Assembly: GCA_007695115.1 (NCBI GenBank)
Contig: REEK01000175.1
Coordinates: 1 to 44,637, forward strand
Origin: Sphaerobacteraceae bacterium
Lineage (GTDB): Bacteria > Chloroflexota > Chloroflexia > Thermomicrobiales > Thermomicrobiaceae
Direction: 5' to 3'
Length of the DNA: 44,637 nt
Numbering within the stretch: the first letter of the stretch is position 1; each line of letters begins with the position of its first letter. The position numbers and the translations under genes were made by a program. This document shows, one piece after another, positions 30,457 to 34,401 of the stretch. The notes beneath the pieces were generated by a model. That model saw only the letters and a program-made list of their open reading frames with translations, had not been told where the DNA came from and did not search any database.

Positions 30457-30499
30457 CTGCCGCGTTGGGAACTTTCAATGATTGTTAGGGGGCCACTTC

Positions 30500-32182
30500 G
30501 TGTCAGCCGCACCAATTGCGTTCGACGTGACGAAATTCTTGCGATTCGACGAGATGACAGACCTTCTTCAGGGGTACGTTTCGGCGCATCCTGAACTCGC
30601 ATCGCTATCATCCGCCGGACGAAGTTTCGAAGAGCGTGAAATCTGGGTCATGACGCTGACCAGCCAGAAGACTGGTGATGCCAGCACCAAGCCAGCAATG
30701 TACATCGACGGAAACATTCACGCTGGCGAAGTAACGGGGGGGAACGTCTGCCTCTATACCATCGATCATCTACTCAGTAACTATGGGAGCGACGAGCGCG
30801 TCACCCACCTGATGGACACCACGACCTTCTATATCGTGCCCCGGCAACAGCCGGATGGCGTCGAGAAGTATCTCACCACTCCATATACGCTGCGCTCCAG
30901 TGTCCGGCATTGGCCGACACAGGAGGAAGATCACGGACTCTACGAGGAAGATATAGATGGCAACGGCATCATCCTCCAGATGCGGGTCCCGGATCCAAAT
31001 GGAGAGTGGAAGATCTCCGACAAGGATCCTCGCCTGATGATCAAGCGAGAGCCAGACGATGTCACCGGCACGTTCTACCGGATCTATACCGAAGGAATGC
31101 TTCGCGATCCCCGACCAGAACCGCTCAAGTTCGCCACCAGTCCATACGGCATCGATCAGAACCGGAACTGGCCAGCCAACTGGAGTCCATGGCAAAAGGG
31201 TGGCGGAGCCTACCCGCTCTCCGAGCCGGAGACCGCCGCAGTGGCCCGGTTCATCGAAGATCACCCAAACATCGTCATCGTGCAGAACTACCACACCACA
31301 GGTGGAGTGATTCTCCGGTCGCCATGCGCAGAAGGTGATCAGACGTTACCCAAGGCCGACGTGGAGATTTACAAGGCTATGGGCGAAATCGGGGAACGAC
31401 TAACGGGCTATCCCTGCACACCGGTGTATGACGCATTCCCGATGACCGATGATCAGGGTCGCCGGGCCACATCGGGTGGATTTATCGAGTGGACCTATGG
31501 ACACAAGGGCATTCTGAGTTTCGCCACCGAACTCTGGGACATCAAATCACGGGCCGGGATCGAGCGGGACGCGAACGACACCATGCGTGTTGTCAAAGAG
31601 GAGACCGAAGACGATGGCCTGAAACTGCTGGAGTGGAACGACCGCGAGATGGGTGAGCGCGGCTTCGTTCCGTGGACGCCGTTCGATCATCCGCAACTCG
31701 GCAAGGTGGAGATCGGCGGGTGGAACAGCAAACTCGTCCGACAGAACGCCCCGCCACAGTTCCTGGAAGACGAATGCGAGCGCAACCTTCAGTTCTCGCT
31801 GAGCCAGGCAGCCATGATGCCCCAGTTATCGTTCAAGTCGATCGAGACCGAATCACTCGGCAACGAGCTCCATATCGTGCGAGCAACACTGGAAAACCGG
31901 GGCTTCCTGCCAACAACTGGCAGCGCACTGGGAACCCGGCTGAACCTGCCACCCCTGTCGGTCAAGGTTGAGGGCGCAGAGGTGCTGATCGGCCGCCCGA
32001 AGATCGAGACCGGCCACCTCCCCGGGCGATCGTCGGCACTCACAGGCCGGAACCGACCAGGGCAGTTCCGGGTTGAGAACGAGCGACTGATCGAAGTGCT
32101 TGTCCGGGGCAGTGGCGAGATGACGATTACCGCGGAGTCCGATCGAGCCGGTACAACCACAGAGACGGTGACGCTCGCCTAG
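30500..32182 (+). CDS. M14-family zinc carboxypeptidase
   Basis: This 560-residue peptidase removes C-terminal residues or trims peptides through a zinc centre. First zinc ligands are His74 and Glu77 in GNIHAGEVTGG, the substrate-binding Asn-Arg lies in DQNRNW (about 219-224), the third zinc ligand is His265 in QNYHTTGG, and the catalytic Glu is Glu344 in SFATELWD. The span between the first zinc pair and the NRNW motif is unusually long (about 140 residues), indicating an insert. No signal peptide is evident, so a cytosolic location is likely. After about residue 440 a beta-rich C-terminal domain follows. GTG at 30500 follows AGGGGGCC at suitable spacing; a TTG at 30482 is less likely. Confidence 0.92.
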   Translation: MSAAPIAFDVTKFLRFDEMTDLLQGYVSAHPELASLSSAGRSFEEREIWVMTLTSQKTGDASTKPAMYIDGNIHAGEVTGGNVCLYTIDHLLSNYGSDERVTHLMDTTTFYIVPRQQPDGVEKYLTTPYTLRSSVRHWPTQEEDHGLYEEDIDGNGIILQMRVPDPNGEWKISDKDPRLMIKREPDDVTGTFYRIYTEGMLRDPRPEPLKFATSPYGIDQNRNWPANWSPWQKGGGAYPLSEPETAAVARFIEDHPNIVIVQNYHTTGGVILRSPCAEGDQTLPKADVEIYKAMGEIGERLTGYPCTPVYDAFPMTDDQGRRATSGGFIEWTYGHKGILSFATELWDIKSRAGIERDANDTMRVVKEETEDDGLKLLEWNDREMGERGFVPWTPFDHPQLGKVEIGGWNSKLVRQNAPPQFLEDECERNLQFSLSQAAMMPQLSFKSIETESLGNELHIVRATLENRGFLPTTGSALGTRLNLPPLSVKVEGAEVLIGRPKIETGHLPGRSSALTGRNRPGQFRVENERLIEVLVRGSGEMTITAESDRAGTTTETVTLA

Positions 32183-32236: not shown

Positions 32237-32887
32237 TCAGGACTGCTTCAACACAGATTCAGCTCGCTCCAGTGCCTCGGTCAGCTCCCGTTGCTGCCGC
32301 GACATCGTCAGATCCCCACGAGTGCGCTCCAGCACGCCACGAACCATATCGGTTGAGCGTCGCAGACCGCTGGTCACCGCATCCGGATAGTCAACTGTCA
32401 CCAGCAGGCCGTAGATATCGTCCATCATACTGAGCGTTCGCTCAGCACGCGAAAGGTCACCATTGCGGATCGTATCCAGCGTATGGCGGCGAAGCTCCCC
32501 GGCAGCCTCGGCCAGGCCGTTCAGGAAAACGGCATCGTCAACCCGGAGCGAGTCCGGATCTGGCAACTCGGTGCCTTCGATAATCGCCAGCGTGATCCAC
32601 GCTTCGGCAAACTCCTTCTGCGAGTCCTGAACATAGCCTGACCAGTAGATCTTCGGCTGAGTCTTCAACTCGTCGATCAGCGCATCCAGAATGGTCTGCG
32701 CCTGGGACAGCAACTCACGTGCGGTATCGAACTCCGCCCGGTGAATCGCACGGATCGCATTTGCACAGAGTCGCACGACTTGACGAGTCTCAGCCAGGGC
32801 ACGTTCCCGGGCGGTATTGACCGCCTCCAGTCTGCCGATCGCTGCTTCGCCGATTTCCTGCAATCCGCGTGGAGTCTTATCTGTCAC
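32237..32887 (-). CDS. Translin-family protein
   Basis: This 216-residue all-helical protein resembles translin, a nucleic-acid-binding family best known in eukaryotes, with prokaryotic homologues grouped in COG2178. The diagnostic C-terminal pattern YPDAVTSGLRRSTDMVRGVLERTRGDLTM (core YPDAVTSGLRR, ERTRGDLT) and the central GLAEAAGELRRHTLDT match the family well. Eukaryotic translin forms octameric rings with TRAX that act as an endoribonuclease; the catalytic Glu residues of TRAX are not readily assigned here. An RNA-binding or RNA-processing role is inferred. Length and helix pattern are normal for the family. It is monocistronic, convergent with the M14 gene and divergent from tRNA-Arg. 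Confidence 0.88.
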   Translation of the reverse strand: MTDKTPRGLQEIGEAAIGRLEAVNTARERALAETRQVVRLCANAIRAIHRAEFDTARELLSQAQTILDALIDELKTQPKIYWSGYVQDSQKEFAEAWITLAIIEGTELPDPDSLRVDDAVFLNGLAEAAGELRRHTLDTIRNGDLSRAERTLSMMDDIYGLLVTVDYPDAVTSGLRRSTDMVRGVLERTRGDLTMSRQQRELTEALERAESVLKQS

Positions 32888-33032: not shown

Positions 33033-33105
33033 GCCCTCGTAGCTCAACGGATAGAGCACTTGGCTTCGGACCAAGGGGTTGGGGGTTCGAGTCCCTCCGA
33101 GGGTA
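33033..33105 (+). tRNA. tRNA-Arg (anticodon TCG)
   Basis: A full cloverleaf is visible: acceptor GCCCTCG pairs with 33098-33104, D-arm GCTC/GAGC, anticodon arm CTTGG-CTTCGGA-CCAAG with anticodon TCG at 33066-33068, and a T-arm with loop TTCGAGT. The discriminator base is A, and CCA is not encoded. It decodes CGA and probably other CGN codons. Confidence 0.96.
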
Positions 33106-33186
33106 TTGATTCTGAACGCCGGGTGCCGCATAGTGCATCCGGCGTTCGTCTATGTAATGACCATGTTCGAGATGTATGGAGGTCGC

Positions 33187-34401
33187 ATGAAGGCAGTCGT
33201 TATGTCGATTGGGTCTGAGCTACTTGGCGGGTTCCTGACCGATACCAACGCGACCTTTCTCGCTCAGGATATGTCCGCGGCCGGAATCGATCTCGTCGGA
33301 GTCATGCAGGTCGGCGACGATCGCGACCGGATCGCCCAGGTGATCGGCCGGGCCGCAGACGATGCCGAACTGGTGGTCATTACCGGTGGCGTTGGACCGA
33401 CTGAAGATGATCTGACACGCGAGGCGATCGCCCACTATGTCGGCGAAGAAGTCATTGTGGATCCAGAGCAACTTGAGATCGTCAAACGTTTTTTCTCGGG
33501 GCGAGGCATCAGCATGCCAGAACGAAACGCCAAGCAAGCCTGGTTGATCCCGTCCTCCGAGGCGCTTCCCAACCCGGTTGGAACCGCGCCCGGCTGGTTT
33601 GTGCGCCACCACGACACCATCATCGTCTCTATGCCCGGGGTTCCGCGAGAGATGCGCCGCATGTGGCGAGATCAGGTTCTCCCCCGACTCGAGGATCGGC
33701 TCGACTCCACCGCGATCGTATCCACCACCATCAAAACGATCGGTATCGGCGAATCCGCCGCCGAGGATATGGTCAAAGACATCATTCATCGGGGCAACCC
33801 GATTGTCGCCACCTACGCCAAGAACGACGGCGTTCACATCCGGGTCACGGCTTCAGACGCAGACCGGGCCAGAGCGCAGGATCTGGTGGATCGCACCGAA
33901 GCAGAGATCCGGGAGCTTTTCGGCGCTCACGCCTACGGCAACCTCGACACCCGACTCGGGCACGCGATTCTCGCTCAGTGCCAGCGTCGAGGAACGGCTA
34001 TCCGGGTTCATGAAGCCGGATCAGCCGGGCGAATTGTCAACCTTCTGGCTGAGGAGTCTGAGCTCGCCGGATGGTTCGCTGGCGGAGTTACCGATCAATT
34101 CGCTGATGCGGCGATGAAAGCCGGGATAGCGCTCGACGCTGAGGATGCGCCGATCGAACTGGCACGCCATTTGGCGCGGGCCGGTGGAAACAGTCCGCAG
34201 TCTGCGCTTATCGCTGTGGTCGCCCGGGCTGGCGAACCGATCGACGAAGAGCGCTTCGCGGGCGACATCGCATTCTGCCTGAATCTCGATGGGAACCTGC
34301 GCGAGCGCACTCATCGTGTCGAAGCGAACCACTCGGAGCTTCGCCGACGGGCTGCACTCTGGGCTAGCGAGTTTCTCCACGTCACGCTGGCAACAGCCTG
34401 A
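33187..34401 (+). CDS. cinA: CinA family protein with degenerate C-terminal domain
   Basis: This 404-residue protein has the CinA two-domain layout. The N-terminal MoaB/MogA-like domain is well conserved (IGSELLGGFLTDTNATFLA, VVITGGVGPTEDDLTREA, IVSMPGVPREMRRMW); in relatives this domain hydrolyses ADP-ribose pyrophosphates. The C-terminal domain, normally an NMN deamidase with an ESCTGG-type motif, here reads HEAGSAGRIVNLL (about 275-287), so the catalytic Ser position is altered. Deamidase activity is therefore doubtful. ATG 33187 is preceded by GGAGG with 4-nt spacing. It lies just downstream of tRNA-Arg and converges on the GT2 gene. Confidence 0.92.
   Translation: MKAVVMSIGSELLGGFLTDTNATFLAQDMSAAGIDLVGVMQVGDDRDRIAQVIGRAADDAELVVITGGVGPTEDDLTREAIAHYVGEEVIVDPEQLEIVKRFFSGRGISMPERNAKQAWLIPSSEALPNPVGTAPGWFVRHHDTIIVSMPGVPREMRRMWRDQVLPRLEDRLDSTAIVSTTIKTIGIGESAAEDMVKDIIHRGNPIVATYAKNDGVHIRVTASDADRARAQDLVDRTEAEIRELFGAHAYGNLDTRLGHAILAQCQRRGTAIRVHEAGSAGRIVNLLAEESELAGWFAGGVTDQFADAAMKAGIALDAEDAPIELARHLARAGGNSPQSALIAVVARAGEPIDEERFAGDIAFCLNLDGNLRERTHRVEANHSELRRRAALWASEFLHVTLATA

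Follow-up and report, generated by a model that had tools for sequence, protein, structure and literature searches.

Introduction

Work on C3PO has been almost confined to eukaryotes and two archaea, in which it has been tied to removal of the siRNA passenger strand, to trimming of pre-tRNA leaders, or to no known role. The nuclease activity of human TRAX requires E126, E129, D193, and E197 (PMC9753400), and human translin retains only one of these four acidic positions (PMC9246224). The closest described prokaryotic systems are AfTrax, which builds AfC3PO in Archaeoglobus fulgidus (PDB 3zc0, 3zc1; Parizotto et al. 2013), and NEQ131, which builds NeC3PO in Nanoarchaeum equitans (PDB 5jr9, 5jrc, 5jre). 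The Nanoarchaeum Trax degrades RNA on its own (PMC9051087), and archaeal TRAX genes have been described by Mukai et al. in operons with SepRS (PMC5424206). As later papers citing Gupta et al. 2012 indicate, bacterial members of the translin superfamily are already in the literature (PMC5424206, PMC8762117, PMC3834833).

Here, we analyzed a stretch of 44,637 nucleotides (hereafter, the window) containing a gene that probably encodes a bacterial TRAX, i.e., the subunit of a prokaryotic C3PO that would act as a homo-oligomeric endoribonuclease with a housekeeping role in RNA metabolism.

The gene and its product

The open reading frame had been placed exactly by the initial annotation and is a complete minus-strand frame of 216 codons (Table 1). 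Upstream of its GTG codon, the minus strand reads AAAGGGG-atact-GTG, a good ribosome-binding site; no match to a sigma-70 promoter or a terminator was found around the gene. The copy in a congener is 85% identical, the gene is widely present in relatives and across the phylum (see below), and the C-terminal block that the initial annotation had quoted is strongly conserved. On these grounds, the frame is a real, conserved gene and not a chance one.

Table 1. Features of the locus, in window coordinates. Motif coordinates were derived from codon numbers, residue n starting at 32887-3(n-1).
Feature	Position	Strand	Remarks
Putative TRAX-type translin-superfamily gene	32237..32887	-	216 aa, GTG start
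E92-F-A-E95 codons (ExxE)	32603..32614	-	Aligns with AfTrax ExxE and, by motif, with human TRAX E126/E129
E127-A-A-G-E131 codons	32495..32509	-	Aligned with human TRAX D193-L-T-G-E197 and fly Trax D204; Glu for Asp at 127
C-terminal block YPDAVTSGLRRSTDMVRGVLERTRGDLT	32306..32389	-	Translation, residues 167-194; strongly conserved in 178 distinct homologues
tRNA-Arg(TCG) gene	33033-33105	divergent from TRAX	145 bp away
CinA homologue	33160-34398	+	
M14 zinc carboxypeptidase gene	30482-32182	+	

Family assignment and predicted structure

When the protein was compared as a single sequence with solved structures (phmmer), it matched AfTrax at E 4e-24 and NEQ131 at E 6e-10. A profile search also reached human TRAX (E 5e-7) and fly Trax (E 6e-5), whereas translins scored only ~0.3-1. 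In Pfam, the top match is Translin (PF01997), at 17.8 bits and thus below the curated cut-off of 25.9, which AfTrax itself clears with 47 bits. Among 71 diverse relatives of the protein, Translin is the commonest family match (53 of 71, best E 7e-8).

An AlphaFold2 model built with the 71 relatives consists entirely of helices (pLDDT 96.8, pTM 0.90), and the monomer is confidently predicted to adopt the all-helical translin fold over its whole chain. Foldseek returned C3PO, TRAX, or translin chains in its first 49 rows, and every one of the 47 PDB chains at E <= 0.001 belongs to one of these. Structural alignment with VIA-align ranked AfC3PO first (Z 24.8, 1.4 A over 190 residues, 34% identity), followed by NeC3PO (Z 21.5), human TRAX (Z 20.7, 2.4 A), and fly Trax (Z 19.1). 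Translins scored Z 12.9-17.9, and the first unrelated fold followed after a clear gap at Z 10.5.

The initial annotation had named the product a translin-family protein. Sequence and predicted fold together place it in the translin superfamily, but on the TRAX (catalytic) side and not among translins proper: both the profile and the structural scores lie closer to TRAX, and all four TRAX acidic positions are kept, against a single one in human translin. The C-terminal block had likewise been taken as distinctive for translin. It is instead typical of bacterial and Archaeoglobus TRAX, and NEQ131 lacks most of it.

Active site

The initial annotation had suggested mapping the TRAX-like acidic residues as a check; all four positions are acidic in the window protein (E92, E95, E127, and E131). 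In the PDB sequences, human TRAX carries D193 and E197 within 'ADLTGE', and fly Trax carries D204 within 'SDLTGE'. Both AfTrax and NEQ131 have Asp at the position equivalent to 127.

We examined these positions in 178 distinct bacterial sequences, i.e., a first set of 118 and 60 further regions from lower-scoring matches down to, but short of, the very weakest. E92, E95, and E131 are Glu in all 178. At position 127, every one of the first 118 has Glu, as do 176 of the full set, so that the four positions are acidic throughout (178/178) but the strict Asp of human D193 is not the rule. The archaeal-type Asp was seen in two sequences only, both from the phylum of Chthonomonas. In our reading, the carboxylate at position 127 has been conserved while its side chain changed in length in the bacterial set.

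A Glu at the site of the catalytic Asp might reduce activity or even abolish it. In that case, the protein might be a TRAX relative without catalysis that, like eukaryotic translin, does no more than bind RNA (or single-stranded DNA), and the Asp-to-Glu change would mark the loss of cutting. Metal nucleases are often weakened by such changes, and this is also the position at which AfTrax has Ala instead of Asp in its RNA-bound C3PO complex (chain 3zc0 vs 3zc1). However, drift would be expected of a site that had died, and translins show it (PMC9246224), whereas position 127 is acidic without exception (178/178 sequences) and the remaining three catalytic Glu residues are invariant. We therefore regard loss of catalysis as unlikely. 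The interchange of Asp and Glu at 127, combined with strict acidity, fits a preserved carboxylate function, and a TRAX that still cuts RNA is the reading we carry forward.

Distribution and phylogeny

The gene was found in 33 of 41 close relatives and in 27 of the 28 good-quality genomes among them. Across the phylum of the window (Chloroflexota), 221 of the 400 sampled genomes carry relatives. In addition, they were detected in 174 of 201 genomes from the phylum of Chthonomonas (Armatimonadota) and in 26 of 148 from the phylum of an Eremiobacterota locus, genome quality being unspecified for both sets. A scan of named genomes yielded 518 relatives among the candidate stretches, and the best 80 of these are all bacterial, from Chloroflexota, Armatimonadota (including Chthonomonas), Eremiobacterota, and UBP9. 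In almost every genome that carries it, TRAX is a single-copy gene. Sphaerobacter itself stands under Thermomicrobiota in NCBI's ranks. No paper that brings together translin and Armatimonadetes was found in the open literature; a single TRAX-like protein in Chloroflexi is reportedly mentioned in the abstract of Gupta, Kale and Kumar from 2012.

In a tree obtained by a short search, the window TRAX groups with its own genus, family, and order. Armatimonadota come out as a single group, though weakly supported (72), and so do Eremiobacterota, with strong support (98). The archaeal homologues included, AfTrax and NEQ131 only, both sit on very long branches.

Copies in three metagenome-assembled genomes (MAGs) were considered as candidates for transfer and rejected. 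That of a Burkholderiales MAG clusters with UBP9, and this MAG is also one of the genomes in the phylum set of the Eremiobacterota locus; that of a Proteobacteria MAG is identical to one in the window's phylum; and that of an Acidimicrobiia MAG sits among Chloroflexota on a long branch. None of them is safe evidence for transfer. No viral relatives of TRAX were found in the IMG/VR scans, and no plasmid relatives of AfTrax were found. Separately, two loci (in genomes G193 and G383) match the C-terminal part of TRAX and contain in-frame stops; they look like decayed remnants of the gene, the match in G193 being weak.

Gene neighborhood and possible pathways

As the initial annotation had noted, a tRNA gene adjoins TRAX. 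Its proposed bearing on the role of the protein did not hold up, since the arrangement is limited to a few related genera and involves different tRNAs: Arg(TCG) in the Sphaerobacter group and Ala(GGC) in sister families, with none in most others. Nor did we observe any enrichment of tRNAs near TRAX (2 within 1 kb, covering 152 kb, vs 8 in the 591 kb beyond). The tRNA neighbor is thus a matter of local synteny. Within the Sphaerobacter group this synteny is stable, with gcvPB on one side of TRAX and tRNA-Arg, cinA, a glycosyltransferase gene, ybeY, and pgpH, in this order, on the other.

Across the phylum, no conserved operon was found among 80 loci. A ThiE-like gene precedes TRAX in 17 of the 80 and a membrane-pyrophosphatase-like gene follows it in 12, mainly in Dehalococcoidia, where TRAX is often preceded by RNase HII-, YraN-, and ThiE-like genes and followed by the membrane-pyrophosphatase-like one, all on one strand (these names were assigned by eye). 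The neighborhoods revealed no tie of TRAX to any RNA pathway.

Two neighbors of the window gene have features of their own. The CinA homologue matches only the MoCF and CinA KH domains in Pfam; the usual C-terminal CinA domain has no Pfam match, although ~150 C-terminal residues remain. The M14 zinc carboxypeptidase gene that adjoins TRAX occupies the same place in another locus of the genus and was undetected there in four Sphaerobacter-group loci, which looks like a genus-level difference within the conserved synteny.

Given that eukaryotic C3PO takes part in RISC activation, the bacterial protein might be a subunit in a defence pathway, whether Argonaute-based or of another kind. Indeed, all eight phylum genomes with a Piwi domain carry TRAX, against ~4.4 expected (Fisher p ~0.008, uncorrected for kinship). 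These co-occurrences may reflect kinship only; four of the eight genomes come from one family and few are independent, so we judge the overlap weak. The Piwi domain of Argonaute is absent from 213 of the 221 TRAX-bearing genomes, the window's own among them, which is evidence that TRAX normally works outside any RISC. PADLOC gave no match for TRAX or the two scanned neighbors, PHROGs gave none, and both the absence of relatives on viral contigs and the core-genome synteny speak against a defence role, which we hold to be highly improbable.

Finally, the name of the best NCBIfam match (NF011160, 'haloacid dehalogenase superfamily protein', E 5e-81) would make the product a haloacid dehalogenase, but no HAD family matched in Pfam and the very-high-confidence model is all-helical with the translin fold and not Rossmann-like, which leaves this reading, like that of an unrelated helical protein, with next to no probability. 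The best model with this name scores 271 bits, just below its cut-off of 291, and six NCBIfam 'equivalog' models so named (NF011156-NF011161) match the TRAX protein. The name is apparently a misnomer that was carried over, an error of annotation that conceals the family. A single TRAX is present in hundreds of bacterial genomes, cultured genera among them, and the curated name it matches is wrong.

Proposed role

For the bacterial TRAX, the homo-oligomer, the metal-dependent cutting, the RNA substrate, and the cellular role are inferred by analogy with the known C3PO complexes. Since the gene is single-copy in almost all genomes that carry it and no translin partner was found, identical subunits would be expected to assemble with each other, and they probably close into a hollow barrel as AfTrax does in AfC3PO. 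The carboxylates of E92, E95, E127, and E131 would line an inner active site, bind a divalent metal, and cut RNA, whose strands may be held by the conserved basic side chains R27, R35, H49, R50, K91, R134, and R183. The likeliest job would be general RNA processing or decay. One could imagine, as a guess, that it clears short RNA fragments, e.g., the 5' leaders of pre-tRNAs; removal of such leaders has been reported for the C3PO of Neurospora.

On a broader view, which we put forward tentatively and at somewhat less than even likelihood, bacterial TRAX may be an old, vertically kept housekeeping RNase of Chloroflexota, Armatimonadota, and Eremiobacterota that has an all-glutamate site, operates with neither translin nor Argonaute, and represents a surviving form of C3PO predating RNA interference. 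In a bacterium that has a single copy and lacks Argonaute, knocking out the gene and sequencing the RNA would be a simple way to probe what C3PO did ancestrally.

Comparison with known systems

Eukaryotic TRAX in C3PO (human 3pja_J, fly 3axj_B) resembles the window protein in fold and in the four catalytic positions. It differs in its low identity (15-17%), in the Asp at 193/204, in its longer chain, and in its partnership with translin subunits in a hetero-oligomer. NEQ131 has the same fold (rmsd 1.9) and shares the ExxE and DxxxE active-site positions, but its identity is 18%, it keeps Asp at 127, and the ERTRGDLT part of the C terminus is unaligned. AfTrax comes closest: it has in common with the window protein the ExxE motif, E131, and the C-terminal GLR..D..RG..ERT block, and it differs by the Asp at the fourth acidic position and by having other residues at four positions that the bacterial set conserves (R46, R50, K91, and D166). 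The Chloroflexi translin-superfamily proteins of Gupta, Kale and Kumar (2012), to judge by the title and the citing papers, are of the same type as the protein described here. Two observations go beyond the literature that we found, namely, the relatives in Armatimonadota and Eremiobacterota and the Glu at the catalytic Asp position.
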